NCBI RefSeq assembly: GCF_964204865.1
Contig: NC_135262.1
Location: forward strand, 15,438,001 to 15,502,000
Origin: Styela clava
Taxonomy: Eukaryota > Chordata > Ascidiacea > Stolidobranchia > Styelidae
Reading direction: 5' to 3'
Length of the DNA stretch: 64,000 nt
This document shows, one piece after another, positions 548-26,009 of the stretch. The position numbers and the translations under genes were made by a program. Position 1 is the first letter of the stretch. Every line of letters starts with the position of its first letter. The notes beneath the pieces were generated by a model. It ran no database searches, was not told the origin of the DNA, and worked only from the letters and a program-made list of their open reading frames with translations.

Positions 548-768
548 GGTATTCCGAAGTATGTGAACCAAGACGGCTGACACCAGAACGTAGTATGTAT
601 ACCAGGTTAAACCATAAAATTATTCCAATTATCTTTATTTTGGTTCTATTACGAGTTCGGAAATATCCGAATGACTCCCGTAGTATTTGTACCTGAAATT
701 ATGGCCTAACCATAACCTGTTACATGTTCCTGTGTCCGCCATATTGGTTCATTTACTTCGGGAGCGCC
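548..768. mobile_element. MITE with GAAGTATGTGAACC inverted ends
   Basis: The left end reads GGTATTCCGAAGTATGTGAA and the right end is its imperfect reverse complement, so the 221-bp element has long terminal inverted repeats and no coding capacity. The right duplication copy lacks it: near 29030 the flanks are joined as GCTGTGTTTCTGTATAA. The element is flanked by ATTTCCTG and GTTTTCTG, an imperfect 8-bp target duplication. It therefore inserted after the segmental duplication. Family members lie at 1836, 7619, 29320, 30406, 37526 and 53505. Confidence 0.75.
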
Positions 769-1835: not shown

Positions 1836-2000
1836 CCATAATTTTATTCAAATTTTCCTTATTTTAGTTCGATTACGAGTTCGAAGACTAGCCAAGTGAC
1901 TCCCGTATTATTTGTACCTGAAATTATGGCCTGACCCTAACCTGGTACACATACTACGTTCCGGTGTCCGCCATCTTGGTTCACATACTTAAGAAGTACC
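1836..2000. mobile_element. 5'-truncated MITE of the GAAGTATG family
   Basis: This matches the right two thirds of the full element at 30406-30640, including the end CATACTTAAGAAGTACC. The left terminal repeat is missing. It ends about 90 bp before the ATG of the four-pass gene in both duplication copies, so the insertion predates the duplication and now forms part of the promoter-proximal DNA. Confidence 0.7.
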
Positions 2001-2090
2001 TACCTATATTTTAATTGCGATTTGTTTATGATTTAGATTTTTAGAAATCCTAAGTTGAATTGAATATTTGTGTATACGTCATTAACTACT

Positions 2091-3679
2091 ATGGGACAAC
2101 TTGGTGTAAATAACAATGATCCAGAATCAGCGAAAATCGAAAGTCAAAAAAATTGGATTCGATTGGACGATGTCAAGCCTGTCTCCGAGGCTGTGTCAAA
2201 CAAATGTAAGTATGATGTTAAATAGCTCTTAAGGTAATTATAAACATTTTATTATTGCGATACTCTTGGTCACCACGGATAAAACAATTTAACAAGAAGT
2301 AGTAGCGCTGTTTGAGTTGTTTTCTTCTTCTGTTTAATCAACATTTTTATGAATCGAAACTATGGAATAATTTGTTAATTTCAGGTGCATTCATATATTT
2401 TGTGCTATGGTTCGGATACTCAGCTTCGGGCATGGTAATTATCATTATTAGAGGTAATTTTAACATTTTCACCTTTATTTATTTGTGGTTATTCAACGGT
2501 ATTAAGTATTTAACGGTCTTCGGCGGATCATAATTTATCGAAATATAATTTCTGCCACGTTTTAACGTACTCTCAATATAGTTATGAATATTTGAATCGT
2601 TAAATGTTACTTTGTAGTTTGTAACACGATCTCCGACAGTTTTAAAACGTTGAATAAGTTGACCTATATAGTCCATATTCTCAAAGCGCAGAAGCGACAA
2701 AAATTCGGCGGAGCAAGTTAAAATATATCACGTAGTCTCTGCTGATAAAGTACCACCCCTGAATTTCTAGAATATCATATTATATACCGAGTTTTGACTA
2801 AAATTCGATCAAGGACAATCATGTATTTATAACTGACTTGCATGAACAAAAAAGTATTGTCATAAGCTAATGGACGAAGAATTGTCAACCGCATTACTAA
2901 TGCCGTTAATGGCCCCCGGTAATGATTGCCGAGAGTGTTACATTGACTCCCCATCGATACCTTGAATTTATTGTTGAAAATATGAGCTCGTGCCAACCAA
3001 TCAATGTGGCTAAAAGGAGGTCAGAGAAATATTTGAGTCAGCAATTTTTGCGTTTAAATTTTCTTCTGGAAGCACCCAAGCATAATGCTGATTCATTATT
3101 TAAAATTCAGAAATGTTGCGGCAGGAGTGCTTTTCGAGCCCCTTCATCGTGACCTGGTGGATCGCACATTTTTTATTTATTACTATTAACACATTCATTG
3201 AACTACGCAGTTTTTTATCCCGCCAGTACAGAGCTTCTTCCGGCGAGATAGCATGGGATATAAACTATTGCGAAATTGTGATGGTCTTTTGGGGACTTTG
3301 TGGTAAGCATCGAATACAAAATATTTTATTGTTTATAAATGGCAATGTCTTAAAATATATCCAAATACCAAATTAAATTTTTATCATTTTTCTGTACAAA
3401 AACAACTTCAGATACTTTGATGGAACAAAAAGATAGGAGTATATTCTGAAACTTTCTTCCAGACGTTACATTAAATCATTTAGGTACGAAATGCATGGAT
3501 GTTTGTATTTGCATTTTTTGATTATCAGATCTCACATTTCAGGTATTGTTGGGTATCTACTAACTCAACCTCATCTCAACACCACCTGCTCTTCTATATC
3601 ATGGATTGGATCTCTAGTGTGGAGCATTATTTCCATCTCTGTCGTCGTGATCAAAATGGCCAAAAAACTATGCTCTTGA
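2091..3679 (+). CDS. Four-pass small membrane protein, member A (4 exons, 170 aa)
   Basis: Exons are 2091-2205, 2385-2453, 3111-3302 and 3543-3679. All three introns are GT-AG and phase 1, and the joined exons make 171 codons including TGA. Residues 1-39 are hydrophilic (starts MGQLGVNNND, probably cytosolic). Exon 2 is one membrane segment (about 40-60, FVLWFGYSASGMVIIII). Exon 3 carries two more (about 72-92 with FIVTWWIAHFLF, and 110-128 with EIVMVFWG) separated by a polar loop. Exon 4 carries the fourth (about 142-160, WIGSLVWSIISISVVV) and a short basic tail ending KKLCS. The exon layout and many positions match the gene at 24954-26009, which supports real coding. I recognise no named family. 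Function is unknown; a tetraspan plasma or organelle membrane protein is inferred from hydropathy alone. An acceptor-like TTTTTAG before 2045 suggests a 5' UTR exon. Confidence 0.85.
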
Positions 3680-4208
3680 AAACTCTTATATTCCGTGGAC
3701 GACGACTGAACGGAAATTGAGACTGAGCAAATTTTATTTTATGAAAAAACAACATTTTTTTCATTTTGTCAATATGTGAATATATAATTTTTTTGCGGTA
3801 AAGGCTTTATGTTATATTTTTTCCACACTTTGTATAAACCTATTTCTAGCCTTTTCTTTTTCAAGTTTATTGTCAACTATATTTTAATCTGCTCATGATG
3901 TTAAAGGTAAGGTCATATTTTGGTGCCACCATGCATCAAGGCGATCACGTTGTAATATTTGTTATATTTAAAACACAATTATATGATGATACCTACAGTG
4001 CTATTATGATGTGTCTTCCACTCCTTACCCATATCTTACTGACATAGCATACTTATGAGCTCCGCTTTTTATTTTTTGAATTTATCTGTATAGTTTACTT
4101 TATTGCTTATATATATTAGTTATTTGACTTTTCTCCGTGAGATGGTGCTTGGTACACTGTTTGTTGTACAATATAATATGTCATGTTACGTTATTTGTAA
4201 ATAAACTG

Positions 4209-5072
4209 TTAAGGTGCGTTTACACTGGATGCGTCGCGTTGCGGCGCACTCCTGGTTGCGCGACACAGGTGTTTACATTGTGCGAGTCATTTTTGTATCG
4301 CTCGATGGCGCCAGGGGCGGTTGCTTAGAAACATAGGCAGTCATATATACAATTAATAATTGAACAACATTAAAGTTCAAACTTACCAAGTTTGAAATCG
4401 AAAGCTAGTTTGAACATCGAAAATTTACAATACTTGGGAATAAAATAGGTTGTGATCTACTTAATAACAAAAAGGACGAAATTGAATAAAAAGACTATTT
4501 CGGACTATGCAAGGACAGGTGCAGAAAGATGTTTATTATAAACCATCGTCAATATTACAATTCATTATGTTGAATATCCACAAAAAAGAGACCATCAAGA
4601 ATACCCAATTGCCATATTCTGATTATTAAATAAAATTAAACCAAGTATTCACATCGCACATAACTAATTTCAAATGTAGTTAGTTGTCCATTTTGGGAAA
4701 TTGTGGATAATTCATTACAATGCACCATCCTGGGTATGCCAATTAGAAATTTCATTTAATGTAGAGAATATTGCTAAGTAAATACCATTGCAATTTGCTT
4801 CAATATGACCAAATCCACTCTAGATTTAACCCCCATAGAAAAGCAAACTAGTCATAGAGTATAATAACGTTGAACAGTCAGGGGAGACTTCAAGTATAAA
4901 CATATGCATCAAAAATAAGTAATATCATTGGGCGTGGAATTTACCCAATAATACTACTGTATAACTTTGTCAGCTATAATTTACAAAAATAATAAATGAA
5001 TGTGAAATAATGTGTCGCTTAATCAGAAGCGCCGCCGCGAACTGAAGAGACGCTTTGTGTGTAAACGGGGTC
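4209..5072. mobile_element. TIR element, GTTTACAC ends (left copy)
   Basis: The left end AAGGTGCGTTTACACTGGAT and the right end TGTGTAAACGGGGTC are inverted and similar, and both are followed inward by a GCGTCGC/GCGGCG-rich stretch (around 4232-4258 and 5028-5052). The interior (about 860 bp) is AT-rich and has no convincing protein. The right copy at 33205-34893 is the same insertion, so it predates the duplication. The superfamily is undetermined; a 3-bp or other target duplication could not be fixed. Confidence 0.6.
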
Positions 5073-5572
5073 ACTTGAAACATTGGGGAGCGATATCGAG
5101 CGCATTCAATGACGTGTAATGCGTGTTACATTTGCGACCAATGTACCATCCAATTTATTGTCGGGTGAATGTCTCATTTTTCTATCACATGAAGCTGTCG
5201 ATGGGTCTTTTATGGCTGCTTATTGCGAAACGACCACACGTATTTCACATTATGGACATTGTGGCGACCGCATCCCTAATGCTTAGTCACACCGCCGAGC
5301 CAAAATTGCACGTCAAAAAAGGGAAAACGAGTCTATGTTCACAACCTTGCTGATCAAACCTCAGATCGTGGGATTACTGCACTTGTTTCCAAACTAGTTT
5401 GTTTATGTTCGTCTGCCAGAGAGAACTCAATGAGCAGAGTGGGAGCAAAACGATGTTTACACTTATGATGATTTCCAACTTCTGGCACGGTTTTCTTGAA
5501 TAAAGAAGATGTCAAATGCTATCGATTATATATATACTTAAATGTTATATTCTATATATATATATATACTAG

Positions 5573-5787
5573 GGGTAATTGTTTTTGCGCATAGGCCTTT
5601 TCTCTCTGGCATTTTCATTACGTAATCGAAGGAAATGATGTAGTTTGGACCGCCTCGAGTTTTCTGACTGTTGAAATGCGTTAGATGATTGTTTATATGT
5701 TTTTTAGAGCGGTACCGAAATTGTAACAAAGTAATCGGATATACTTCAGATAAAATGGATTTTAAACCATTTATGCAAATGTTTTAA
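5573..5787 (+). pseudogene. Decayed copy of the membrane-protein exon at 35382
   Basis: This is the left-copy counterpart of the open exon at 35382-35596. A one-base deletion in the stretch ATTTTCATTACGTAATC (the other copy has ATTCACGTAATC) shifts the frame. A further change turns a TTG codon into TAG (ATGCGTTAGATG). The end TTTATGCAAATGTTTTAA is kept. Nothing else suggests expression. Confidence 0.6.
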
Positions 5788-7113
5788 ACAAAATTTAATC
5801 AATACGGTCGACGAATCCAATCTTTTAGACTTCATATAACGAAATGCATTGAAGTACATGGTTTATTGACCACTTATATTATATTTCTATAACATTTAAA
5901 CTGCAAGATTGTTGTTGATCGTAGGAGCGAAAGCATGCAAAAGACAAAGGAATAAAGGTTGGCATCTTGCGCAAGAAGCAATTCTGTTTTTCCATATTTT
6001 CGATATCACAACATATATAATACTTTGCTTATGCGAACACTGGCCAAGTTATATTTCGATCGCATATTACGTTGCTTAACCTTTCGCCTTTTTTGTATTC
6101 GAAATATATTTATTGACAATACGGAATCGAACTATATGGCGAACGCTACAAAATTAAAACTCGCTGTAGCGCTGCTCTGTCCGTCTATTGATTCTTGCTT
6201 CATCTCACGTGATAGTTGTTGCGGTTACGTGAGAAGATTGCACTTTATGTTTATGCTAAAAACGCAAAAATGTTGGTGACAAAAGCCTGGATTCAAAGTA
6301 ACGTCTCGAATAGGGCTGATGGGTGTTGGGTCTTCCTCGGACGAAGAAATTGCGCAAAGTTGAATCCTTGGCAATTTGGAGTGTGCAAAAATCTCTGACG
6401 CGGTAAGTGTTTGGGATATGCTCGGGTCACACTGATCGATGACCCCACATGATATTCTAACGGACGCCCTTCGAATTGACTACTGGGTTCATGAAGGTCA
6501 AAGTGTTTTAGTGCGAACTCTCCAAAGAACCGCTACTGGACTACGACGGGTATTCTGGTTTCCGGGAAATCATAGCAGCAGGATAGGACGCGTATTCTCT
6601 ACTGGTCGGCTTGCTTCACCTACCGCCCAGAAGCCATTGGTTACATTTACCGATAAACAGGCGGGGCCGGACGCGTGGTTCGCAGCCACCATGATTATAT
6701 TATTTGTACTTTTTGTTTATTTGCCTTCTATATCCAATAATACATGAAAACAATAGCTTTAATTGAAAGACTGCTTCAACTCGTGCTCTGAAATCCAAGC
6801 AGAATGCGCCAATCTTTTGACAATGTTGTAGAAAATTAAAAAAGGGTGAGTATCGTAAAAATATAAATGGACTAAAAAGATCGTACAGTCTTGAAAATAA
6901 ACTATGTATATAACTACGGAGTCAAACTCAATATGGAGGTTATGATTTGGAGCGTAGCGCGCCCAGAAGAATAGCGATTTTTCGTTTTACAACAATGGCA
7001 ATTCGCAAATTCGTGTTAACAGAATATGTAGCCTTGCATTGATATATTTGCTTGTTATTCAGTTTTAATTAAATAAAATTCTCCAGTCTCTAAAATCTTC
7101 ATCCTGAGTCAAA

Positions 7114-7205
7114 ATGAAGAACAAAATATTGAGAGTGTTCCTGATGTTGGCCGTTGCTTCAGTGATGATCCTCGTAACTACACGTAGAAGGCATGGTTGG
7201 CCAAG
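7114..7205 (+). CDS. First exon of a type II / signal-anchored protein (left copy)
   Basis: The ATG opens 30 codons plus two bases before the donor AAG|GTAAGT. The peptide begins MKNKILRVFLMLAVASVMIL, a short basic start and a hydrophobic stretch of about 17 residues, then TTRRRHGWP. A signal peptide or a Golgi-type signal anchor fits. The copy at 36920 keeps the frame while differing by one whole codon and several residue changes, which is what a coding exon would show. The next exon was not found: the candidate at 8813 has the wrong phase to join directly. The enzyme class is unknown; glycosyltransferases and sulfotransferases often start this way, but nothing here proves it. Confidence 0.5.
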
Positions 7206-7618
7206 GTAAGTGTAAATAACAACGATAGCGAGACTTATACGTTTATTGTGAGCGAGCGTGCTACCGTCGCAAATATATCAAAACAATAAATTGCACATAT
7301 TATTAGACGGAATCCAACAAAAATCTGGTCAAAACCGAGATTGGACAGGCAACGATTAGCATGTCTCCATGAGAGATGGAATCGTCTATATTCAAAGTTT
7401 CGTAGTCGGAGTCAAAATTTTGAGATTTTGAGGAGGTCTCGCGGGCCGTAGACGGAGAAAACTCAAAAGTGATCAAAACATCGCGAGTTTACTCACTTTA
7501 AATATATTTAAGAATGAAAGTTTATCATTCTAATCAGTTTTTCAAGGAAACTATATAAAGCCTTCAGTTATTTTAAATTTGCACCCCGAGAAATATCGTG
7601 GTATTTTCGGTATCTTTT

Positions 7619-7834
7619 CGGCGCCGCTCCAGAAGTATGTACAAACTAGGAGGTACCTAATTTTGTTCGCCTACTTTACATCAAGTTGTGTACAGGAACT
7701 GATTACTATGGGCAGGGGTGTATTCACTTGGCTAACATAAAACAGTCCCCGAACTAGCAATTGAAATAAAATAAGGAAAATCGGAATATAATTATGGCCT
7801 AACCCTAGCCTGGTGCATATACTACGGGAGTACC
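7619..7834. mobile_element. MITE, GAAGTATG family (shared by both duplication copies)
   Basis: The left end GGCGCCGCTCCAGAAGTATG and the right end ATACTACGGGAGTACC are inverted matches, with a non-coding interior of about 215 bp. It shares the internal words TATGGCCTAACCCTA and ACATCAAGTTGTGTA with other members. The same insertion is present at 37526-37742, so it is older than the segmental duplication. Confidence 0.65.
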
Positions 7835-8812
7835 ATTTTTCCCTCGTGTTTGGTTTCGTAATGTCGCTTAAAATTATATTCTTTCGTGACAAATATTACT
7901 TGAAAACGCACCAGACACTGTGGTTTAACGTTGTTGTGGGTAAGGAAATGCGTTTCCTCCCAATTTACCTCGGTCACCTTTTTTCTACACTCATTGTATG
8001 ATGAATTGTTATTTTGAAAAAATATATTACTGGTAGCGTGAGCAGGCCTAGTTTTAATGTCTGAAAAAAGGCCGTTTAAGTTGGGACCTCGGACCCATAT
8101 AAAAAAACTGGATCACGCGGCGCTAAATCAGCTCTGCGGTTTGTCACTGCTGTCAGTGTCACATGGCCAACGCTTGAAAATAGAGCAGTGTTTTGACTGA
8201 AATAAAGGCACAAAACGTCTTTTCAAATGAGGAGTTATTTGACGCGAGCTCATCTCATCGGCTTGGTACCGTCTGCACAAGACAACTCATTTTCCTTTTA
8301 TCGATCACAGGACGTCATTCCCATGTAGGCACCGCACCGTATTGACGTTTATAGATACAATAATGAAATTCCATGATTTTAACGAACATCAATCCCGACA
8401 TTGGGATTAGAAAAAGGACTATTCTAAGTTGGAATAGCTATAAAATAAATCGAAATTGTTCTGCTAAGAAATACAAATATCTGCCAATGGTTTAGTAGTG
8501 CACGTTAAAACTGTTCTACAGGCCGCACGGAATGTGTATAAAGTGGGCCGCGGTTTGGACTACTCTGTTCTAAGTAATGTCAACAACAAAAAAACTAAGT
8601 TCACTAAGCGTTCCTCTTAGTCTATTTAAAAAGGCTTGTCAATTCGAGTGTTTGATAAACGGTAACTCGGGTGGTGTCAATGATTCGATCCTACCGGTTG
8701 ATATATGTATCCGCGTCAATACTGCTGAAGCTTGATGTAATAAATATATCTTCAGCTAACATATAAAACTACGTTTCATTTAACTTTTCAAATTCAATAT
8801 TGTTATTTTTAG

Positions 8813-8861
8813 AGTGCAACCCTATTCGTGAATTTCCTGAAAGCTGCGTGGACTTTGTCAA
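8813..8861 (+). other. Candidate internal exon, 49 bp (left copy)
   Basis: The acceptor TATTTTTAG and donor GTAAGTGC bracket 49 bases. Read in the open frame they give two bases, then CNPIREFPESCVDFV, then two bases (phase 1 in, phase 2 out). The exon at 7114 ends in phase 2 and cannot join directly, so a linking exon is missing or this belongs to another gene. The right copy (40305-40357) has four extra bases and loses this frame. Confidence 0.3.
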
Positions 8862-9032
8862 GTAAGTGCAGTCAATTTCATTTTATTTGTTTTTCTTATC
8901 TTGAGGTTAGAGATATGAGCAATTTGGTCCTGAACCAAGCCAATTGCGGATTTATCAATATTAAAGCAGGGATTGAGATTCTAGTCCTTTACCTCCGCAA
9001 ACAAATGTCCCACTCGAAATGTCACTCTAACA

Positions 9033-9417
9033 CAGGGGTTTTCAAACTTTTGGTGGTATGAGGTCGTGATGAGATATTATTGGACTATTATTTACGAAGC
9101 CCCACAAAAAATTTAAAAATAAAAACATGTTTCTTAATTAAAGAATAATGTTCCTGGGTAAATTACTTTATTTAATGACGTATGCGATGGGATGTATTTC
9201 ATGGTCTGTCTTTTAGAAAAAAATACACTTGACAAACACATTAAACAAAGCTGTAAGGCCGTTTTCTATTGGAACCTGAAGATAATGTCATATTCAAATT
9301 GCCGCCTCGTTGCCACATTCCGGCGCTACCGTTGTCAAATTTTATCAATGCAATAATAATTCTTAGCATTCCTTTACCCAGCCCCGGTACTTCGTATGGA
9401 GCACTTTGAAAATAGTA
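9033..9417. mobile_element. hAT-type non-autonomous element (left copy)
   Basis: It starts CAGGGGTTTTCAAACTTTTG, a typical hAT end, and finishes with CACTTTGAAAATAGTAG, a degenerate inverted counterpart. The interior near the right end (CCACATTCCGG...GTTGTCAAATTTTATCAA) is related to the right part of the element at 13949. No intact protein is present. The matching insertion at 40583-40964 shows it predates the duplication. Confidence 0.6.
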
Positions 9418-10588
9418 GTTCTTAACCCTTGCCGAACCCCTACGCTCTTTAACACGCTTCCCGTCGAACACTCTCGTAATAAATGGTTCAACTAGGATCC
9501 CAATGAGAACTTTATATTTGAATACCTAATTTTGTGCAAAGATATATGATTTTATAGTATAACCTTGGATATCGATTCTCTGTGTGTAAATAGATATTGT
9601 TGTGTCACAATGGTGTCGGCGGCAGAACCAGACGTTTGTTGTATAAATTATGCGGGTGAAAAGGCAAAAAACTGATATTGCAAAAATTTCAACTTCGGAG
9701 ATCCGAAGGATACCTCGAAAAATATTGGTAGCTGAAGGTATTCGCTTATCAAACTACAAACTACACCCTATTGCGTTTCTACATTGTTTTGCAGAAATAG
9801 AGATACCGTCATATTGAGATTGTCCAGAATGGATGATGATAATTTTTAGCAAATCTCCGCAATGAAGTTTCAATTTTCCATAATTTATAACTCGGTGGAA
9901 ATCAAATAAGCGTTGATTTTATATTGATATTTGCATACTTTCTGCCTATCTTTGTCTTATCCGTTACACGGAGGCACATTTTATTATTATATACTTGTCC
10001 CACTTTTCTGAGTTCATAGTAAGGAAAATGGTTGAAAAGGGAAAATGATGTGAGGTTTATTCAATTGGAACACGTGAGAAAAAATGGGTATTTTTGAGAC
10101 ACCCCTTTCAGTTTGTTCATGTCTTTTTTTCAGGGACTGCAAGGATGATTTAGCATCACGGACAAGATATATATAATCGGCCATTATAATCAAGAATCTA
10201 ATCATATTGTGGATTGTATTGAATAAATAAAACTCATATATTCACGAGGTATTATTTCTCCAAATAAATTAGAATATGTTGTTGTATTCAACATGAATCT
10301 AGAGTATATATATATATAGTTGCATTAGAATGACAGACACTAGCTGACTAGCACAAAGCGTGGAGTAGTTGAATTGTGTAGAATGGATTTTTCGGATTTT
10401 GTTCAGTTTTATTGAGGTTTCCTTCAATATAATTACCGGAGGGCTTAAAAAGGTCAACGCTAGTTACTTAGCTTTGTCCATAAAACGATCAATTATGTAA
10501 CGAACAACGGAGTGTGCGGTTGTGGTACCCGGTAAAACATTTCCGTTTGCGGGGGTTTCCACATTTATTCCGAGAGAAGAAATACGAT

Positions 10589-10731
10589 AAGATTACTTAA
10601 CCATATGATGAACGTCGGCATTTCGTCCGATCACCAGTTCATGTCGGGTATGAGATTTAACCAAATATTCGTTCCAGATACACTGACTTAACGGTGGATG
10701 AAGCTGTAACCGACCAGTGGTTACGGATAAG
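10589..10731 (-). mobile_element. SINE fragment (body only)
   Basis: On the minus strand it carries the diagnostic body of the SINEs at 52459 and 54172: a CCACTGGTCGGTTAC-like block followed by the CATG...CCGGA/ATATGGTTAAG blocks. The tRNA-like head and the ATCCT tail are missing, and the rest is heavily mutated. Confidence 0.5.
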
Positions 10732-11689
10732 AACCTTGATTGAAATGGAGCAAAATTTTGCCATTGGGGCCGGAGTCGACATTTTCCAGGGTCGTAGTTC
10801 TAGTTTCAGATTTGTTATATTGATAATCAAGGTCAAGAAAGGCCAAAAGTAGTTTTTGTAATTTTACACACATTTAATCACGTTCTAATAAAAAGTACTA
10901 AGTCTAAAAGTCTAAGTAAAAGTACACACTTCAGTGCCTGTCAATTGGGGAATCGCCATAAGTTATCTGGTGGGTTCGATTCGAGATGTTTCCACTTGCC
11001 ATGTACCATTTTTGGTCGTCTCATATAACTTTCATGTTCATTGGATGCTGTATGTGGTTCAGCTGCCAAAGCCATGCTCGTTTATAATCTATATTAAGAG
11101 TGTTCTAAATTTCCGACCTTAGAAATTAAATAAGATATTGAACCTTGGGTGTCGCTGCTCGATAACCAATCCTGGTTCCCCGCGACTTCCCTTCCCCGAT
11201 AAAAAGGTGTTTTCAATTTTGTATTTTGTCAATTTCGTATGTTATTTTTTACTGGATGGAAGAAAATAACTTGAATATCACTACTACCGGTAACTAACTT
11301 CAATATATAATACATATATTACTAAAAGTTTATTATACCCCAACTTTTCGACGCTGTATCGTGATTGAACTAAACTTTCCGGGAACAAATTGATTGTCGT
11401 GCAGACTTAGGCTTGCACGTAATTTACTGATTTACGGAATTACGGAATTATTTGGAGTTACGGAAGGGAAGTTACGAATTACGTAAAGTCGTAATTATTG
11501 CATTGAAACGAGCTTTCTTCAAAGCAGTCAATTTCGTCGATTGCGAAAAATGAAAGCTCAACAAGTAGAAGAAGTTAGAGTTCCGGTATTCGCAGCCGTT
11601 TTTCTCCCTTTTCTCTCTCTTGTTACGTAGGTGAAGGAAGGCATGACGCTTTGCCATTTACTGACCTATAATCAACGGCATGACCAATG

Positions 11690-11952
11690 TAAATTATTAA
11701 CGTACTTAAGGGGGAAGAACTGAGTAGGGCCGTTTGACGCCAACACACCTGGTTTTAACTTCTCCCGTAACTTACCGTAGATAAGGGATAGAATTGCGTT
11801 GAGACCGATTGACGCCAACACACCTGGTTCCAAATTCTCTCCCATCTTATCTAGCATGGCCATGGCCAATGTACATAATAACCGTAGATAGGGGGAAAGA
11901 ATTGTGTTAAGACCGATGGACGCTAACACGCCCGGTTTCAACTTCTTCGGGT
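11690..11952. repeat. Imperfect tandem repeat, 3 units of about 75-105 bp
   Basis: The block GACGCCAACACACCTGGTT recurs at about 11739 and 11811, with a diverged form (GACGCTAACACGCCCGGTTT) at about 11918. Each is preceded by GGGRARGAATTG-like and CCGTAGATA words. On the minus strand all three read PGVLAS, because the unit lengths keep phase. That gives an apparent repetitive 89-codon frame which I regard as a by-product. Confidence 0.65.
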
Positions 11953-13829: not shown

Positions 13830-13905
13830 TGTGGCACAGTGGAAAATCAGCTCTCACACTCGTACTTTATCCGGAATCACGTCTGCGGTTCGATGTTTGA
13901 ATCCG
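13830..13905 (+). repeat. tRNA-like sequence, probably an old SINE head
   Basis: TGTGGCACAGTGGAAAATCAGC resembles a tRNA A-box region, and GGTTCGATGTTTGAATCCGC is a B-box-like block at the right distance. The arms do not fold cleanly by eye, so a functional tRNA is unlikely. Confidence 0.25.
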
Positions 13906-13948
13906 CCCTTAGGTGAGTTACGACCATTGTGAGGTGTATATAACCTAG

Positions 13949-15793
13949 GTCATAGGTTCTCAAAGTGCTCCGTACGGAGCCCCAGGGCTCCGCGAGAGAA
14001 ACCCAGGGGCTCCGCGAGCTATTCGATTACTTTTCAAAATAATGACTATAGTTTTGTAACTTTTCAAAGAAGCAATAACAGCTTTGATGAAATTTGACAA
14101 CAATATAGCCTCGAAATATGGCAAAGAGGCGGAATTAAAAAATGACATTATTTATAAGCTGGAGCGCAGCCAGGATTCTCAAGAAGTGGGGATTTGAATC
14201 GGAAATTTCCGCGCAACATTCATTGCGATTATAAAAAACGGATAACGAGATTTCTGTTGCGTAAAATATTCAATGCATGGCCGATGCGAGCATTTAAAGT
14301 GTCTTGTCGTAATAATTCAATTGTACTCATAGTTACTCAAGTTTCATTCGAGATTACTATTAGGATTACTAAAATGAAAGAATACTATTCTAAAATACAT
14401 AACATAAAACACGTGATAAACTGCCAACTATAAATAAATTGGAGTCGTATTTTTGCGATCTGAAATTTGTCAAACTTGATCTGTTCTTTTGCACTCGAGA
14501 TTACTATTAAGCAAGATATCGCCGTTTAAAAAATCACAAGATCTGGGCAAAATACGATTGAAATTTATTTTAATGCATGCGGCTCTGTCGGTAGTTTTAG
14601 AATAAAAAAAAGGTATATCGCGCACACAATTGACTGTGTTTCGATTTCGCAGTTACTATACGATGAATAACCAAAGAAAACCTAACATTACACCAAATTT
14701 TGTGATTTACAATGCCTATAAAAGCGTAAAGCGTTTTTAATCTGACGTGAGTCTGCTAAAACCAAACTTATAGTGTGATCTTTTATTTTAAGTTTTAATA
14801 TTTTAGAATGCCGTTTTTCAATCAAGAAATTTGAGTTGCGGATTTACCTCTTTATTATTAATTATTATTTTCAGCATTTCGTCGCCGATGACTATATGGT
14901 AACATGTATTTCATATTGAACTCATAATTTCCCACGAGAACAAAAAAGCATTTATTGTCGTCATTGTGGAACAATGCATGTAAATGCCGAAGAAAATTTT
15001 TGATTTAGGGAGAATAAACACCGGCGTAAAGATGTTTAAAAACATGCCATGCTGACGAAAACTATCGGTTATTGTAATAAGATGCAATCGCGCACGTTAT
15101 TAGCGGCCTTTTAAGTCTTCCGAAAATGTCAAAAGGGAAAAGATTTGACCCCTAGTTGGACACATAGTGGACATAACGATCGTTTCAAAATTTTATTGTT
15201 ATTTTTATTATTTGTCTCCATCATTTTTTTTTAAAAAAAATCGCTTTTCTCTTTGACTACTGGACCAATTGCTTTGAAATTTTCAGTGAGTAAAGATTGA
15301 TTTTTTTGCCAGAAGGCTATTACTTTTATTTATTTCTAAATTTCGCATGAAATCTGATATTTCGTTTAAAATTTCGCTGTATTATTTTATCTATGGGAAC
15401 ACTGGCTGTCCGGTTTGATTCTGTAAATTATTTCTACGCGAAACTCGGAACTTTTTGTGGGTACCGGTGGCGTCAAAGGTAAATACTGCTTCGCTCTGGT
15501 TAACGTGTCCATATATTTGAGCACAGCTCTCATGTTTATTAATATGTTTGTCAAGTGTCAAATTTACAGCTTTAGTAAGAGTATATATAATTTATCTTTG
15601 GAATTTTTGATTTATTTATGACTTGCATTAACCCCATTAAAAAAAGGTTTAGCATTTAAATTAAGTTAAGTACTTTTCACTTACTCAGGAATATTTATTG
15701 GAAAGCTCCTATTTTAACATTTCTTTTGGGGCTCCGCGAATAATAGTCAACCTTTTCAGGGGCTCCGCAACACCAAAAGTTTGAGAACCCCTG
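13949..15793. mobile_element. hAT-like element 1 (about 1.85 kb, non-autonomous)
   Basis: The left end is CATAGGTTCTCAAAGTGCTCC and the right end CAAAAGTTTGAGAACCCCTG, whose reverse complement is the classic hAT start CAGGGGTTCTCAAACTTTTG. CCTAGGT occurs just before the left end and just after the right end, an imperfect target duplication. The interior has no intact transposase. Its sequence recurs inverted at 16660-18045, again at 42755-43393 and as a fragment at 59152-59350, so this is a multi-copy family. Confidence 0.65.
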
Positions 15794-15812
15794 AGTCCTA
15801 GGTCATAAGTTC

Positions 15813-16328
15813 TCAAAGTGCTCCGTACGGAGCCCCAGGGCTCCGCGAGAGAAACCCAGGGAATAAAACGAAGGTTTGGTCTTCTTTAGAGCCAGGCAAT
15901 TCCAATTCGGGTAGGCCTTTAAACACTGGAAAAAGAATTTCATTGCAGTGTGGAATTGGTCTAATTGCAGACTCGAGGTTTGGATAAACCAACGATTTCC
16001 TGTTCTTGCTATTGATACCCTTTGTGTTTACTGCACACAGATAGCAGTCATCATAATAATTTTTCGAGACCATTGGAATACTAAAGCGGAGTGACTTTCT
16101 ATCCTTTTTTGTCCACTGTGAAAGATGCTCAATACATTGCTTGCATACAATATGGGGTGCCCATACCTTATCTTGATCACCCAGCATTATATTGAAGTAG
16201 GCAAGATAACCACACTTCACAAATTTACTGATCCCTTTCCTGTTGGATTGCAATGTATATTCTCCGCAAATATAGCAAAATACATTTGGATTGTTTGAAC
16301 AATGTCGCCTAAGAGAAGATGTAGCCAT
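15813..16328 (-). pseudogene. N-terminal fragment of an element-borne Cys-rich protein
   Basis: An open frame of 171 codons starts at a true ATG (16326-16328). It has paired cysteines (FCYICGEYTL, PHIVCKQCIEHL, DDCYLCAVN) and the motif RKSLRFSIPMV. I recall this pattern from uncharacterised proteins predicted in high copy in arthropod and other invertebrate genomes; that is memory, not a search. The last 20 codons (from FPGFLSR) are just the translated transposon end, so the protein is truncated. A zinc-binding role is possible from the Cys pairs. Confidence 0.5.
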
Positions 16329-18089
16329 ACTTTATTTTTGCTCCAAAAATCTGCAACTCAATCAAAACAATGCAGCTTATTTATTTCATGTCTGACTTCT
16401 TTATATAGAAAATTTGACTTTTACAAGGCGTGTGATGTCATAATCGTTTGGCATACATCACAATAAAAACCTACACTTGTAATTATAACGCTAAAACCAA
16501 ATATAGAACTACCCCTAATTTTAAGGTAAAAAAGGTATAAAATAGCTAATATTTCAACAATTTGACCTGATGAGAAAAAACTAGTATGATTTTTGGACGC
16601 GGCACCCCCAAATTAATCTAAATCAGCTTAGAAACCTTGGACACCGAAAAATGTTTTGGCCCGTGCTATTATTCACGGAGCCCCAAAATAAATGTTACTT
16701 TCCGATTAATATTCCTGAGTAAGTTAAACGTACTTTACTCAGTTTAAATACCAAACCCTTTTAATAGGGTTAATACAAGTCATAAATAAATCTAAGTTTC
16801 AAAGATAAATTGTATATACTAATGCTGTAAATTTGACACATGACAAACATATAAATAAATTAGGGGTCGAATCTTTTCCCCTCATTTTTGAAAGACTTAA
16901 GAGGGCCGCTAATAACGTGCGCTGTTGCATTTTGTTACAATCGCCGATTGTTTTCGTCAGCATGGCGTGTTTTTAAACCTCAAACATTTTTACGCCGGTG
17001 TTTATTCTCTCTAAATCAAAAATTCCCTTCGGCATATACATGTGTTGTTCCACAATGACGACGATAATTGCTTTTTCGTTCTCGCGGGGAATTATGAGTT
17101 CATTGTGAAAAACATGTTACCATATTATAATCATCGGCGACGAAATGCTAAAAATAATGGTTAATAAAGAGGTAAATCCGCAATTCAAATTTCTTGATTG
17201 AGTAAATCCGCAATTCAAATTTCTTGAATAAAAATCGGCATTCTAAAATATTATAACTAAAACTTGAAATGGAAGATAACACTATAAGTTTTGTTTCAGC
17301 AGACTCACGTCAGAATAAAAACGCTTTTATAGACAATGTAAATCACAAAATTCGGTGTTATGTTAGGTTTTCTTCGGTTATTTATCGTGGTAATTGCGAA
17401 ATTGAAACACAGTCAAGTCATGATGCGCGCGATGTACCATTTTTCCACTCTGAAACTACCGACGGAGCCGCATGCACTAAAATAAATTTCAATCGTTCGT
17501 ATTTTGCCTAGACCCTGTGATTTTTCAAACGGCGATACCTTGCTTAAAAATAATCTCGAGGCCGAACGAACAAATCAAGTTTAACAAATCCCGAGATCGC
17601 AAAAATACGACTCCAATTTATTTATAGTTGGCAGTTTATCACGCAGTTTATGTTATTTTAGAATGGTATTCTTTCATTTTAATAATCCTAATAGTAATCT
17701 CCAAAGAACGTGAGTAACGATGAGCACAATTAAATTATTACGACAAGACACTTTAAAGTTTAAATGTCATGAATTGAATATTTTGCGCAACAGAAATCCC
17801 GTTATTCATTTTTTTTTTTGAATCGCCAAGAATGTTGCGCGTAAATTTCCGATTCCAAATTTGAACCTCCTCCCTCTTAAGAATCCTCGCTGCGCTCCTG
17901 CTTATAAATAATGTCATTTTATAAGTCCGCCACTTTGCCATATTTCGAGGCTATATTGTTGTCAAATTTTATCAAAGCTGTTATTGCTTCTGGGAACAGT
18001 TTCAAATTAGCCAAGTCAGTATTTTGAAAAGTAATCGAATTCAGATGTCGCTTTTTCTTCTTCTTCACTTCCATAGCAATTTTCTTGTG

Positions 18090-18530
18090 GAGAACTTAAT
18101 GATATGAATAGAGATTTCAACTTTTCTAAAGAATCTCCTGAATTTTAAGCTTCAAAATTCAAGGAAAAAAATCTACTTCTGTCGAGAACTCATAACATTC
18201 TATAGAGAACGCCATATTGAATTCTTGTCATATTTCACTCAGGAAAAAGACATCAGAGGCGCCCAACTACAAAAAGCTTGTTGAAAAACTACTCACAAGT
18301 CTCTGTCAACTTGGGGGCAAATATAAGCATCAAGTTATATATTTTGCACAGCCATCTTGCCCGTTTTCCAGAAAATCTAGGTGATGTGAATTGTGAATGA
18401 TGGGGCAAGGGGAGCCCTTCCATCAAGATATAAGCGGCATGGAAGTTCGCCATCAAGGTCTTTGGGATGCCACCATGTCTGCAGACTACTGTTAGTCCAT
18501 CAAGCGCGATGATGCCAGTCCTCCCATTAT
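18090..18530 (+). pseudogene. Mid and C-terminal remnants of the same protein family
   Basis: Read on the plus strand with frameshifts, the region gives LSKES-like and FKEKNLL words (18120-18170) and later GEPFHQDISGMEVRHQG, LWDATMSADYC and SIKRD (18395-18500). These resemble the later part of the family named for 15813-16328. Several stops break it, including TAG after SADYC. It lies in the opposite orientation to the N-terminal fragment, which the inverted arms around it could explain. Confidence 0.45.
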
Positions 18531-20347
18531 AGAAAATCAGTAAAACGTCAATTTATAGCTGATGACATCTATTAGTTAACATTTATCTATTAGTTACAAC
18601 TTCCAGCTTTAATTGTCAATATTTTGGTGAGATTTCATGAATATGTTCAATAAAATTACAGAAAAATGTTGTTTCTTCAATCTGCCTATCTTTATTGTAG
18701 CTATCGGCATCCTGCAAAGAGCGATATACCATAGAAGAAAAACTAGACCTCATAGAGAAAAAGTAACAGCATTTCTGGAATCAGCGCTCTCAAATTTGCT
18801 AAAAACGTTTAAAACATCTTGGGCACCATGAAAAAAATTTTTTTTGTTAGCCAGTGTAATCAACCTTTTCAAAGGCTCCGCAACGCCAAAAGTTTGAGAG
18901 CCCCTGTTCTATAGTATAGATAAAATAATATAAAAAAAGAACAATGACCTTGCAAAATTCTGTTTAGTACCCATTTTTTTCCTGTTGCCTGATGGAAATA
19001 TCTCAAATCAAAATAAATTAGAGAAGATGGGTTTACTTCAAAATATAATTGTATTGACTGTATGGGTTGATACATGTGTCAGTTGGGCTGGACGAATTAT
19101 TTTCTTGTGGCTCTCTATCATGATCTGAATAATGTTAAAAATATAATTATCACAGCTTAATGGATTTTAAATAAATTCAAAAATTTCAAAATGTTAGACC
19201 TTAATCTTGTTATACATGTTAAAATGACATTGTTTTTAATTTCAGAAAATTTTGAGAATTTTTTTGATAAATTCTGTCAAAACCAATTTTTTGAACAATG
19301 AAATTCCGACTAAATTTGACAGATATAATTGTTTCATAAAAACAGATCAGGACACCTCACAAACAAGTAACCAACGTTCAAAGTTTGTAGCGATTATGGG
19401 AGGGTTGTCATGTGTTGTACGAATGGGTGCGTGAATTCGAGAGATGCGTCGGTACGTCTTGAAATACGTTCCTATGCGGCTCCAATACAATGCATGGATA
19501 ACGTGGGATGGTCGAGTCGCCCCGAAGATGAAATAACAAGAGCTATTCTTCTAAACTACAACGTGTGTGAAATGTGGTTAGAATCAATTTTCAACTGGAT
19601 AAAAATAAACCTCAGCAAGGTATTGAATGTGTTGTTCTAACACATCTGACCGTTTATCAACTTACCAACAATACAACGAGATCAATCACTATCAGCCCTG
19701 AATGGTTCTCTAACAACTCATCACTTCGAAATCAAACTTGGGCAACTTAAATTTTAAGTTTGCTCTCCTGATTCTGTACTCAGTTTATATTTATTCTGCT
19801 TTTCTCAATTAGTTTGTCTTCTGTTATTTTGATTATGGAGTCGAAATAAACTAATATATACTTATAATAATCCTGTTCAACAATACATGAATTGGAAATT
19901 AAACCAAATTTAAATCATATCCCTACTCTTACTGTAATAACGGTAGTTATCAAGCACTATTTGTATACCTGACTACCATTTCAAATGAGACGATGTCTAT
20001 CGGGTAGTCAGGCGTAAAACACAGTCCGTGAGCCACCAGCCAATTCTGTAACTGAATGAGTCAAGCAAAATGCTACAAGCTGACGCGATTACATCTCGCG
20101 TACACTAATAATGAAGGCATAAGGTAATTACCTAAATTCAATTTATAAACGCTCATAATAAATGTTTTGGTTATCCACTCCGGTTACTGCAAGATTAGGA
20201 TCGTTTCATGCATAAATTGAGCATAGGTACAGTTAAATGACTGCGAAATTTTTTTTCATCTTGTCATGCGAATGGAATAAAATTAACAGTCCAATCATAC
20301 AGTCAAGCGTAACATGCTCATGAAAGCATATTGCGGCGATACGGTTT

Positions 20348-20382
20348 GTTAAACCGCAAATATATACTACTACGGTTAAACT
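20348..20382. repeat. 35-bp dispersed motif, copy 1
   Basis: GTTAAACCGCAAATATATAC followed by TACTACGGTTAAACT recurs at 46991-47025 with only two differences (both C/T). It contains inverted GTTTAAC-type halves (GTTAAACCG ... CGGTTAAAC), so it could be an element end or a bound site. Flanks of the two copies do not match. Confidence 0.5.
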
Positions 20383-22018
20383 AACTGCCTTGATTTTTAT
20401 GAAGAAATCCATATATGCTGTAGCTTTTCCAGTTCGTAAAATTCCAAAGCATCTTAGACTAGAAACTGAACATACAGCCACCTTTGATTCAGACTCCGTT
20501 CAATTTATCACAAAACCGTAATCAGGCCGTGACTAACGAGTTTAATAAATATGACTTTGTTTACTTGACGACTACTGTCTGGGAGTGAGTGCTTCTTTAT
20601 GTAACATAAATTATACGATTATTGAATATAAGCACGCTCCGAATCCGTTTCTTGTATAGTTCCATGCTGCCCAACTTCAGGTAAACAACGATGCTGTTTA
20701 TCTTTAGGGTTCAGTTGAGAAATGTTTACGTTTTCACCTAAAAATATTTGCTCCGTTCTATGATAGCAGAAGTAGTATATGACGCAAAAAACGTTTTGAT
20801 TTGACGATGTAGATCACAGCCTTTAGTTTGGTAATTTCCACGTTTCGGTTGTGTAACTTTAGTCGTATTTCCTTACCTATTTGCACGATTAAAGACAACA
20901 AAAGCACGACAGTTCGTGATAGTTAGTTACAGTCATATTGCTGAGCTGATCCTACATGGTGCTTCTGTTAATTAGGTACTGTTACTGAGTATAGTCTGAT
21001 TGTGATGCAAATGCTCAAAGATCCACGGTTTGATTTTCACTCACTTTACCATGAGGTAAATCTTATTGGATCAATCGTTTAAATCTAGAGGTGTAAACTG
21101 TAAAGGATAATAATGATATCTCAATTACCACAGATATTTGTAAAGATTTGTCGACATGTTTAGTGTTCTGCGTAAACAAACGGGTTATAAGTACCACCAA
21201 CTTTTATAAGGCGTGTAGCTTTTACATATTGTTATATCTTCATAAAAACACAAAATTCAATCATCGGAATTTTCACTCAGTTTGAAATATTTGACAAACC
21301 AATGTCACAGTGAGAGATAACGTTATTCAATCATTTATTAATGTGTAAAGTTGGGAGTGCAAAAAATTGCGCAACCTCAATTTTCCTTTTGGTAATTTAC
21401 CACGGTTATTCCCCGGTCCATGGCGTACAAGAAATGCAATATACAAGGATAGAATTAGGTGTATTCAAAGTATTTCATAAAGAAATATTTTGCGTTGATT
21501 TCTTGCTTTTGCCCAATTAGTAAAATAGTATTCGTGTGAGATTAAAATTCCAAGAATATCATATACATTACCCGCGACCATAAAAGTGTAAGACCTACTG
21601 AGAGTATAAAGAATTGTTGTGTAGAATTGCACTTCGGTATACATACCGGATTGACGCGATACTCACAGCAGTTCCTGTCAATACGGCCAGCCACGAGGAA
21701 TTGAATTCCACATAACTGAAGTACATGGGGAAAAAATTTGGCCTGAAAAATATTTTTTCCGTCTGGTAGTTACCCGGATAGTTTTCTGATGGTAGATCAC
21801 ATCAAGCCGAGTTTGGCGACTGAGAATTGTTTTGGAGAGACAGGTTCAGAAGTACAGTCCATTATAATATCCGTGAAACAAGCACGGCGACGCAACTTTT
21901 CATCATTGGAACGCTAATTGGAAGCCAATCATATTTGGTATTCTCTTTTGAATAAGGTCCAGAAGATCCCGATATTATTACTTATCGATCTTGATCGGTA
22001 AGTATGTTGATAGGTATT

Positions 22019-22022
22019 TGTT

Positions 22023-22057
<35 letters not shown>

Positions 22058-22058
22058 T
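22019..22058. repeat. (TGTC)n microsatellite
   Basis: About ten TGTC/TGTT units lie in a row, followed by a non-random flank (ACACTTCCGTATCTTACGCG...). Such tetranucleotide runs often sit at the ends of dispersed elements. Confidence 0.85.
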
Positions 22059-24733
22059 AGACACTTCCGTATCTTACGCGATATCTCACGAAAGCGAAGT
22101 TGAATCTGCTCCAAATTTTGCATGTGCATTCACCATATCTCGGACCAGAAGCCTTTTGGATGTATTATGTCGTATAATTAATGAATTAATTATGAATTAA
22201 TTAGTAATGGGACACGCGGTGTCACTATAGAGTCAGAGAAGAATGAATCGAAACCACAGTTTCTGTTTTGGGGATCCCCTAACTTTCGATCGATAGGTCT
22301 GCGGTCTCCGACCGATATTCTCGTTGAAATATTATGTCGTTTCAATGAGTTTGCGTAACCTTTCATATGAATTAAAGTTCCTCTTTCATATCGAGTGCGA
22401 ACATTTTCTCTGTTGTTGACTCAAGATTACAACTTAGACGTAAGTATGACTTTTACGATTTTTATGTACCAGTACAAATGCACGTAAAGTAAATTAATTT
22501 TTGCATATTCGTGATATTAGCTATTCGATTAATATTGGAGTGTGGTTGCTGTCAAATTAGATATCAAATTTCCGATTTCGAATAATCAGCGCCAGATGAA
22601 TCTGTATTGTTGCGTATTATAAAGACAATGTAGATATAAGCCATAGTTATTGCGTAATAATTATCTGATAAATAGCCAGGAAAACCCAGATCATTATATT
22701 TGAATGCGTTGTCTAGAAATTCTGTCTCCCAGGTTGATATTCACAGAAATGTTTTCTATAAATACCAATGAGAACATTTAAGTTGCACCATTGCTCAGAA
22801 ATTTGTGGATACCAAACATGCAAGTTTGTTTGCCACTGGATATCTTGCTATTGTATTAAAAAACAACTATATTGCACAAGCTAAAATAACGATTGAATTT
22901 CAAGGAAATTTTACGGTGTTAAAATAGTGATGATAAAATATGAACAATTACCGATCATCAATTTTGGGAATAAATCGTCAAATGCAATAGATACTTGGAG
23001 AAATAGCTTCGATTTATTTAGTGAGCAAACAAACTCCGTAGCATGTTCTTGTTCAATTCAAATTAATTCGAATACATACGCGTATCAAGCACTTTTCAGT
23101 TGTATTATGTTATTTAACGCGTGGTGACATAAATATGCCGTAGATAAAATTTGGTTGTTTTGACAAACAGACTAAAACTTCATAACCACAAAATATTTTA
23201 CAAGATGTGGCTTTAGTAGGCAATTCATTCAAAAGCATCGTGTTGTATAATATGCCTGGTATGACATGTAGAAGAACTGCAGTTGGTCAAGCATGAATAT
23301 ATGTTAATTTATATAAATAAGCGCTCTGACCATCGGGGAGAAAAAGCGGAAATGTGTGCAAATAAGAAGTACTTACTACTTGTGTCAAATGTTTGCCGTT
23401 TGAAATACCGTATGACTTGCGTTAAGAATGTAACAAAACGAAAATATAACTTTGTTACTTTCGACTTATGTTTCGATCATAATAAAAAAATCTTGGTGAA
23501 TGTAAGTATGCAGTAGATTGCATTTGAAATAAATCTTAGCGACTATTATACAGTTATAATAGGTATTATCTGCTAGTTAGATAGAAGATATTGGTTGCGA
23601 TGTTAAAAAAGCGTTGCGTGTTGCAACATTCAACCAAAATTTCCTGGGATGTACTTGTCTTGACATTGCGATATTATTTTGAAATGATATCATGTTATGA
23701 AATTCAAAAACTTGCGCAACTTCTTTGTTGCCCAAAAATGTCTCAAGTAACAAAGACAGTAAATGGTTCTGCTTTCAAACTCTGGGATATAAAATCACCC
23801 GGGTGAAACCCAGACTGGGGCATGAATATTTCTTGTGTTGTTTTGTTTAGTAAAATATTATGTGCTATTCTCGCTACGTTCATGATATGATATTCTGCAG
23901 CAATTTTTCAGTTATCAAATATTTGATTGGACATAATTAAGGCAGTTAACATTAATAATTCAATATTTCTATAGGCTCCTTATGTAGTAATTCTTACCAA
24001 CAATGATCCGGTCGCAACGTAAAGCAATGAAACTATAAAAATCTTTACCTAGCGTCTGAATGGTAACGTTAACAATGTATATAACAAACATCGTTTCAAC
24101 ATTTTAACAACTTCATTTTATAAATCAAAAACACGCTCCCACTATATACGGTATATATATATATATATGAGTATTGCAATATAACTGAGCATTATGGGTA
24201 TTTTTCCCATTTCCATTTCCCAAGTTATTCGACTTGGGATAATATAAAATAGCACCGTGAAGTGTCTTCGGTATCCACCAGGTTTTAAAACCCTTAAACC
24301 CGTATTTCAAACAATAACAAGTTTGAATATCTCGCAAAAATATCCCATTCGTACAGTAGAACAATGCGAAAATGTTCTATTTTTTGCTAGTCGCTTTGCA
24401 AAACAATATCATTGCCATTGTTTATTTGGTAAGAGTTCTGCATTCTGGTATTTCATGACGATTGTTCTTATGGCGTAATACGTGTTTAAATTAAAGAAGT
24501 GTCGATTTTTTTTTGTAAATTAATTTTATCTATGCCAATCCTAAGGTGATTTTCATTAAAATATACATAGAACAATTAATCAACGACGCCTATAAATAGG
24601 ATGCACTACGACAGCAGAACTTTTCAAACTGTCTATGTCATCTTCTCGTAGGAACACGCTATATGTACTGAAAGCAACATAGTCATATGGAGCAAGTGGA
24701 CCACGAATGATAATAATTTTGGTATTCTGTGAC

Positions 24734-24743
24734 TATATAAAAG
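24734..24743 (+). promoter_or_regulatory. TATA box of the four-pass gene C
   Basis: TATATAAAAG lies about 210 bp before the ATG at 24954. The expected start site is near 24765. A TTATTTACAG acceptor at 24904-24913 suggests a 5' UTR intron between the two. Confidence 0.6.
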
Positions 24744-24953
24744 TGAGAGGATCTGACAAAGTTCAGTAAAATTTGTGTGCTCAACAGTGTTTTAATCCGC
24801 AACAGTTTTTTGGTTTAAATCAAGGATTTTCAAGGAGATTTAACTTCACGACAGGGATAAAGTTGGAAATCGACATTTTTGTACTTGATTTAATGTTATA
24901 TTTTTATTTACAGATATACTCTTATTAATATTAATATACTCATTGTCGTCAGA

Positions 24954-26009
24954 ATGGTTCAGTGGGATGTCAAAATTACAGAAGTAGAGGAAGGGAAGGA
25001 CGTCACTGAATCTGTTGTATCGGTCGGGGAAGGAAAACGAACGCATTGTAAGTATAAACATATATCATGGGCCATATAGAATATGGAAGTGATTAGAATT
25101 ATATAGGTACTCCAGTACTTTAGTATTCAATTCCTTCTACAATTTACATGCCACATAAATTTCTTAATTGTCATGGCTGTGTTATAATCCTTTATTCTCC
25201 TAAAACAGGAAAAGCAAAACAATTAGCCTAATTGTGTATTTTAGTGGCTGTCGTTTTGATATTGCTTTTATATTATTATATGTTTTGTTTCTATTTACAG
25301 TATGGCAGTATGTTTATACCACGATGTTGATAGCCTACGTTGCTACTTGTGTCACACTAGGTAAGGTATTACATATTTATTAAAATATGTTTAACCAATA
25401 CAACAACAAAAAAATAAACATTGAAATTTTTAGCAGAAAGTTTCAATTTTGATGAAACTAAGATAAAAGTAAAATTCCGAGAGCAAATAATATATTGTTA
25501 TTTATCATTTATGGGAACAACGTAATTGACATGAATACTTCTTCTTTTTCAGGAGCCCTTCGTAATTTAGGCTGTTCCCTCGATGGTTTCTTGGTTGTCT
25601 GGTGGACCGCGGAGGCTGTCTTTCTTTTCGTTGGGACAATCCTTGAGTTCGTACACATTCGTCGCGTTGACGTTTCAGACGTCGACGTCAGGTCTCGCTG
25701 TCCCGTAAACTGTGATTTGTTACTTGTTATCTGGGGAGTCATCGGTAAGACGGCTAGATCTTAGTTACTTCATATTAAAAATGTAACGTAATCCTATTTT
25801 TGGTATTTCTCATGAACGAACTCAAAACAGCGGCTAAATTTTTTAACTTCATTTTTTATATTTCAGGAATCATAGGAAACTATATGGTTCAGCATCAAGT
25901 GGACGTCACAGTTTGCGCAATGTTTCAATGGACTGGGTTATTAATTTGGAGCATCGTCTCTATTGTTGTCGTTGTCGTGGGAAGAATTTCGATCAAAGTT
26001 TGTTACTAA
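24954..26009 (+). CDS. Four-pass small membrane protein, member C (4 exons, 162 aa)
   Basis: Exons are 24954-25047, 25301-25360, 25553-25744 and 25867-26009, with phase-1 GT-AG introns, giving 163 codons including TAA. The N-terminal 31 residues are acidic and polar (MVQWDVKITEVEEGKD). Membrane segments lie at about 36-52 (YTTMLIAYVATCVTL), 64-84 (FLVVWWTAEAVFLFVGTIL), 103-122 (DLLLVIWGVIGIIG) and 138-155 (GLLIWSIVSIVVVVVG). Exon 3 is exactly 192 bases, as in member A. Shared landmarks are the WW pair, the Glu after segment 2, WG in segment 3, a Cys before segment 4, and W.G.L.WSI.SI.VVV. The protein is otherwise well diverged, so selection rather than recent copying preserved the design. It sits between the two duplication copies. 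I know no named family; function unknown. Confidence 0.85.

Follow-up and report, generated by a model that had tools for sequence, protein, structure and literature searches.

To which protein family do the small four-pass membrane proteins encoded in one stretch of the Styela clava genome belong? The stretch, here called the window, comprises 64,000 nucleotides (nt) of the 20.3-Mb contig NC_135262.1 (assembly GCF_964204865.1, positions 15,438,001 to 15,502,000 of the forward strand), and coordinates below are counted from its first letter unless stated otherwise. It contains two intact members of the family, genes A and C, and one disrupted copy, locus B; a fourth copy, D, lies shortly before the window. 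A first-pass annotation had recognized a common gene plan at A, B and C but was unable to place the products in any family it knew. Our analysis indicates that A, C and D are very probably a strongly diverged, tandem-duplicated branch that descended from a TMEM272-like gene, and that the conserved gene plan is the right clue to this placement.

Structure of the intact genes

Gene A is encoded on the plus strand by four exons: (i) 2091-2205 (115 nt), encoding a polar N-terminal tail without a PPxY motif and ending in a phase-1 donor, (ii) 2385-2453 (69 nt, phases 1-1), encoding the first transmembrane segment (TM1), (iii) 3111-3302 (192 nt, phases 1-1), encoding loop 1 with Cys68, TM2, the inner loop and the first half of TM3, and (iv) 3543-3679 (137 nt), encoding the remainder of TM3, loop 2 (which contains an NTT site and Cys141), TM4 and the stop codon. 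The 3' end of the third exon falls inside the codon of Gly126, four residues past Trp122. All three introns are of the GT-AG type and in phase 1, and the 170-residue product is identical to the Styela clava protein of NCBI locus LOC120332914 (P0001), with 100% identity over 100% of the length and every letter matching.

Gene C, on the same strand, has exons at 24954-25047 (94 nt, polar N-terminal tail, again PPxY-free), 25301-25360 (60 nt, TM1, with the length and phases of the TM1 exon in the TMEM272-like gene described below), 25553-25744 (192 nt, loop 1, TM2, inner loop and first half of TM3) and 25867-26009 (143 nt, remainder of TM3, loop 2 containing Cys132, TM4 and stop). Its three introns are likewise GT-AG and phase 1, and the product has 162 residues. 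In the third exon, Cys59 stands seven residues past a Gly whose codon is split by the preceding intron, and the exon ends within the codon of Gly116, four residues past Trp112. The C/D-type protein of NCBI locus LOC120332992 (P0002) shares 92% identity with C and is an exact copy of neither C nor D; it may be the product of an allele or of another assembly. Residues 1-19 of P0002 resemble the in-frame sequence directly upstream of the initiator Met of C and D (before position 24954 in C), and the start of the NCBI model may have been set too far upstream.

Hydropathy profiles show four peaks in each of A and C, in agreement with the four-pass topology proposed at first, and one Cys is present in each short outer loop. 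The N-glycosylation motif NTT is found in A but not in C. Identity between A and C is about 30%, and the features that the first-pass annotation had described as surviving this strong divergence, namely the WW pair, the WG of the third segment, the Cys before the fourth segment and the W.G.L.WSI.SI.VVV core, are all conserved. The four-exon plan with every intron in phase 1 was confirmed for A and C in its exon boundaries and phases, whereas its extension to locus B fails, where the third exon measures 195 nt and is out of frame. A genome-wide search for further members, also proposed at that stage, yielded copy D, located 2.3-3.3 kilobases (kb) before the window (window coordinates -3332 to -2266), with exons of 94, 60, 192 and 143 nt separated by phase-1 introns.

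Comparison with the TMEM272-like gene of Styela

We took TMEM272 to be a candidate relative, prompted by a short N-terminal tail, a single Cys in loop 1, the W-x3-G motif of TM3 and a single Cys directly before TM4. A reference set of TMEM272-like proteins was collected by a search with a TMEM272 probe. The search gave 508 proteins at E <= 1e-5, and the PPxY, W-x3-G and offset counts reported below cover the 120 of these 508 matches that were listed. The matches, many of them named 'transmembrane protein 272-like', come from molluscs, hemichordates, amphioxus, cnidarians, arthropods and other groups. The loop-1 Cys and the loop-2 Cys just before TM4 are invariant in 24 of 24 TMEM272-like proteins, as is a Gly that precedes the loop-1 Cys by seven residues; this Gly is present in C and D and absent in A. 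The W-x3-G motif occurs in 117 of the 120 proteins, counted anywhere in the sequence rather than in TM3 only. PPxY motifs were found in 114/120 (two or more in 98/120), and none is present in P0001, P0002 or the C and D sequences.

Before the TMEM272-like gene of Styela was seen, we set two phase-1 introns as the test of kinship, one located before the loop-1 Cys and the other within the codon of the TM3 Gly. The distance to the Cys and the length of the TM1 exon were outside this advance prediction. One TMEM272-like gene was detected in Styela, on a different contig (C18:8996695-8998996; three matches from four candidates at E <= 10). Its exons encode an N-terminal tail with PPTY and PPPSY (156 nt), TM1 (60 nt), loop 1 with TM2, the inner loop and half of TM3 (222 nt), and the remainder (176 nt); its first coding exon was not located.

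The three junctions that were compared are all in phase 1 in this gene, and its TM1 exon, like those of C and D, measures exactly 60 nt and has phases 1-1. The phase-1 intron that follows this exon interrupts the codon of a Gly located seven residues ahead of the loop-1 Cys (G|AINLNNC in the TMEM272-like gene, G|ALRNLGC in C and D). The intron after that, also of phase 1, interrupts the TM3 Gly codon, four residues past the Trp (WFFAG|NVW in the TMEM272-like gene, WGVIG|IIG in C and WGLCG|IVG in A). Gene A agrees with the TMEM272-like gene in the phases and in the split TM3 Gly. The likeness extends from the proteins (four membrane segments, a Cys in each of loops 1 and 2, the latter just before TM4, and W-x3-G in TM3) to the gene structure, with phase-1 introns ahead of both TM1 and the loop-1 Cys and within the TM3 Gly. 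The third exon differs in length, with 192 nt in A, C and D and 222 nt in the Styela TMEM272-like gene.

Register of the membrane segments

When P0001, P0002 and 38 TMEM272-like proteins (40 sequences) are aligned by MAFFT, three columns are invariant, namely those of the two loop Cys residues and of the TM3 Gly. TM3 and TM4 were misplaced when the full proteins were aligned by MAFFT to the TMEM272-like protein of Styela, and we therefore used a comparison anchored on the introns. The shuffled controls for this comparison, and for the offset, HMMER and hhalign tests below, preserved local composition only; for the intron-anchored comparison, full shuffles were made as well. Without gaps from TM1 to TM2, and scored by BLOSUM62, C reaches +27 (local-shuffle P 0.0006) and D reaches +24 (P 0.001) when compared with the Styela TMEM272-like protein. 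For D, the other 16 offsets (-8 to +8) all score -16 or less.

The register was further assessed against the 120 listed proteins by an alignment that took the loop-1 Cys as its fixed point, left this residue unscored and covered offsets from -9 to +9. Offset 0 is the best for D in 105/120 and for A in 96/120; since these proteins are mutually related, the counts are not independent, and shuffled queries served as the control. On every fourth protein (n=30), offset 0 wins in 26 cases for D, a count equalled by none of 200 local shuffles, and in 24 for A, equalled by one of 200. When the two halves are taken separately, the TM1 half of D is best at 0 in 64/120 and its TM2 half in 82/120, and the TM2 half of A in 87/120. 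Pairwise blastp against the Styela TMEM272-like protein, with the composition correction off, gave E values of 3e-5 for D, 2e-4 for C and 4e-6 for P0002. The best local matches of C and D to this protein cover about 90 residues at 16-20% identity.

An orphan family as the alternative

The results of the standard searches bear on the view that A, C and D form an orphan, Styela-restricted four-pass family whose likeness in plan to TMEM272 arose by chance or from a tendency of short four-pass genes towards phase-1 introns between segments. Neither A nor C matched any of 24,736 Pfam models at E <= 10, in a search whose filters discard most matches above E ~0.1, and gene C, the only one compared with PDB by sequence, had no match there at E <= 10. 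Among about 5.8 billion protein sequences, a profile of A and C retrieved Styela clava only (3 of 254 candidates at E <= 10), and so did residues 52-162 of D (1 of 10 candidates at E <= 10); these searches require common five-residue words, and distant relatives may escape them. The failure of the first attempt to name a family is understandable as far as Pfam is concerned: three TMEM272-like proteins run against it gave no family at the cut-off, which may explain its silence on A and C. Nevertheless, the gene plan and register most likely do allow a placement.

Several observations weigh against descent from a TMEM272-like gene. The plan comparison covers one gene outside the branch, the TMEM272-like gene of Styela, a point that also speaks for the orphan view. 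In gene A, the TM1 exon has nine extra bases (69 nt), six rather than seven residues separate the split codon from the Cys, and the split codon encodes Glu; the E value of A in pairwise blastp, again with the composition correction off, is 0.33. The TM1 half of A is best at offset -1 (34/120) rather than at 0 (17/120), which fits the spacing shorter by one residue but lends no support. In the intron-anchored comparison, TM3 similarity is weak (local-shuffle P 0.1), and TM4 lacks clear similarity (P 0.76 for D and 0.13 for A). The TM1 Pro, the W and Y of GNVWIY and the Y of YC, found in 24/24 TMEM272-like proteins, are absent from the A/C lineage.

Whole-length profiles add to these points. The top HMMER score is 18.0 bits as compared to 16.0 for reversed targets, and one of 60 shuffled profiles reached 19.0; in the opposite direction, the TMEM272 profile scores A at 2.5 bits and C and D negatively. 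The hhalign score of 23.8, obtained with 24 of the 120 TMEM272-like proteins after removal of mostly-gap columns, was equalled by 12/150 shuffles of 5-column blocks and 3/150 of 10-column blocks. The median HMMER score over the 120 targets, 3.4 bits, exceeds both the reversed median (1.3) and the medians of 60/60 shuffles. The HMMER and hhalign alignments are in the right register, yet they do not rise clearly over the reversed and shuffled controls, and we do not use them as proof.

The confinement of the database hits to Styela clava, the profile scores and the lack of clear similarity in TM4 are what would be expected of an orphan family. Set against it are the exact agreement of C and D with the Styela TMEM272-like gene in the size of the TM1 exon, the positions of two introns, the phases of three, and the spacing of W-x3-G and the Cys; the fact that two of the matching introns were expected beforehand; and a register that at most one of 200 shuffled queries could equal for either A or D. 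We thus regard an orphan origin as quite improbable. Descent from a TMEM272-like gene remains the preferred reading, with the qualification that A, C and D, judged by their sequences, are best described as a diverged TMEM272-related lineage. They are not called canonical members because most TMEM272 signature residues and PPxY are missing; the features absent in A, C and D comprise PPxY, the TM1 Pro, IPIYL, GNVWIY and YC..LY.FAFW.

Structure models and other four-pass families

A structure model built from the two-sequence alignment was poor, with a predicted local distance difference test score (pLDDT) of 55. Addition of 38 of the 120 TMEM272-like proteins to the alignment raised the pLDDT to 69 and gave four long helices in the region of the membrane segments. 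This gain was not counted as evidence because the joint alignment presupposes the kinship.

Membership in one of the better-known four-pass families (CD20/MS4A, tetraspanin, claudin, MARVEL, connexin or pannexin) would be suggested by the general four-helix arrangement, which is shared with connexin, pannexin and the IgE-receptor bundles, the latter being of MS4A type. In a fold search with the joint-alignment model, the matches, connexin, pannexin and IgE-receptor bundles among them, scored no higher than designed proteins, and these families gave no Pfam match for A or C. CD20/MS4A, tetraspanin, claudin and MARVEL, each of which has a Pfam model, were rejected on the absence of a match for A or C at E <= 10. 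Assignment to any of these families is scarcely credible.

Duplication, selection and the disrupted copy

In a genome search with P0002, ten matches were obtained at E <= 0.001, all of them in four places on the contig of the window, one just upstream of the window. The A protein, searched up to E 10, had 12 of its 14 matches in the A, B, C and D loci; the remaining two (E 1.67 and 4.36) were taken as chance. Self-comparison of the contig revealed that a unit containing D and A (-9022 to 9902) is repeated about 28 kb away as a unit containing C and B (18909 to 42345), with matching pieces 78-94% identical and the longest one of 7.1 kb at 93%. Both units are on the plus strand; the in-window part of the first occupies 554-9902, and its matching pieces begin about 9 kb before the window.

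C and D differ at 13 of 111 synonymous and 11 of 375 non-synonymous sites, with a ratio of non-synonymous to synonymous rates (dN/dS) of 0.23 (Fisher P = 0.0006). Therefore, the C/D type is under purifying selection. Between A and C, dN is 0.69 and dS is not estimable, the synonymous sites being saturated. The initial description of the loci as a real, selected family holds for the plan in A, C and D and for selection in the C/D pair only, and the plan is broken in B.

Locus B (30727-32305, plus strand; NCBI LOC120332800) is a disrupted copy of A. It consists of exon-like pieces at 30727-30841, 30980-31048, 31734-31928 and 32169-32305 and retains the splice sites of A; the three additional bases of its third exon (195 instead of 192 nt) are accompanied by a frameshift and in-frame stops, and the loop-1 Cys is gone. 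The NCBI model (P0003, 147 residues) departs from the family frame past the second exon, and this protein was excluded from the family profiles. Codon by codon, A and B differ by 4 synonymous and 12 non-synonymous changes, with an identical fourth exon; in the parts comparable in frame there are 2 synonymous and 9 non-synonymous changes, too few for a significance test. The disruption may be genuine or may result from sequencing errors in single-base runs. A 174-base unit, present twice head-to-tail at 29870-30218 with 99% likeness, adjoins the locus on its upstream side.

That one of four copies is disrupted could be taken to mean that the intact loci too are non-functional duplicated remnants with open frames retained by chance. 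The purifying selection on C and D (dN/dS and P as above), the intact frames and splice sites of A, C and D, and the presence in NCBI of proteins corresponding to A and to a C/D-type sequence all argue for functional genes, and we consider such remnants very improbable.

Possible roles of the diverged branch

Under descent from a TMEM272-like gene, the inherited gene plan would comprise a polar tail, an exon for TM1 (60 nt in C and D), an exon for loop 1, TM2 and half of TM3, and an exon for the rest of TM3, loop 2 and TM4, all joined by phase-1 introns. Both ends of the protein would be cytosolic, and the single Cys residues of loop 1 and loop 2 may form one disulfide that pins the four-helix bundle. 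PPxY motifs in general bind the WW domains of NEDD4-type ubiquitin ligases, and the PPxY motifs in the N-terminal tail of canonical TMEM272-like proteins would dock WW-domain proteins such as these ligases. A functional analogy for canonical TMEM272 only is offered by the NDFIP-type adaptors of NEDD4 ligases, which are small multi-pass membrane proteins with PPxY in a cytosolic tail; the A/C/D lineage lacks this motif. Literature listings, as far as titles and the openings of abstracts go, contained no recognizable functional study of TMEM272.

The Styela branch would then have kept the membrane bundle and lost the docking tail, with a short polar tail in its place. We tentatively favor the role of a membrane partner or scaffold that is no longer coupled to WW-domain recruitment, the likeliest of the functions considered, if still a doubtful one. 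A more specific and rather unlikely variant is that a styelid TMEM272-like duplicate shed its PPxY tail and gave rise to a separate branch, diverged yet under selection, and that its products pair with the remaining TMEM272-like protein and block or tune the recruitment of WW-domain ligases.

If the placement is correct, an apparent orphan family becomes a case in which gene structure indicates a kinship that profile searches miss. TMEM272, present in many animal groups, would also gain a natural variant with the bundle kept and the PPxY tail absent, a contrast that could serve to test which half of the protein does what.

Other features of the window

At 59809-59865, tblastn gave a weak match with some likeness to the TM3/TM4 junction; it was rejected as a further family member, since no convincing family exons were found nearby in the plus-strand frames examined. 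At 15813-16328 on the minus strand, a Cys-rich frame of 171 residues has only sub-threshold Pfam matches, mostly to zinc-finger types. An open frame of 523 residues at 56123-57694 (plus strand) contains DUF4371 and a hAT-family dimerisation domain, both above the Pfam cut-offs, and represents a hAT-type transposase-like gene. The segments 14021-15157, 16858-18040 and 42755-43391 are inverted and dispersed copies of one another with about 83-85% identity, and are likely a mobile element inserted several times. Finally, an exon-like frame at 61770-62075 on the minus strand encodes the start of a fibrinogen C-terminal domain (24.7 bits against a Pfam cut-off of 22) and is probably part of a minus-strand fibrinogen-related gene.

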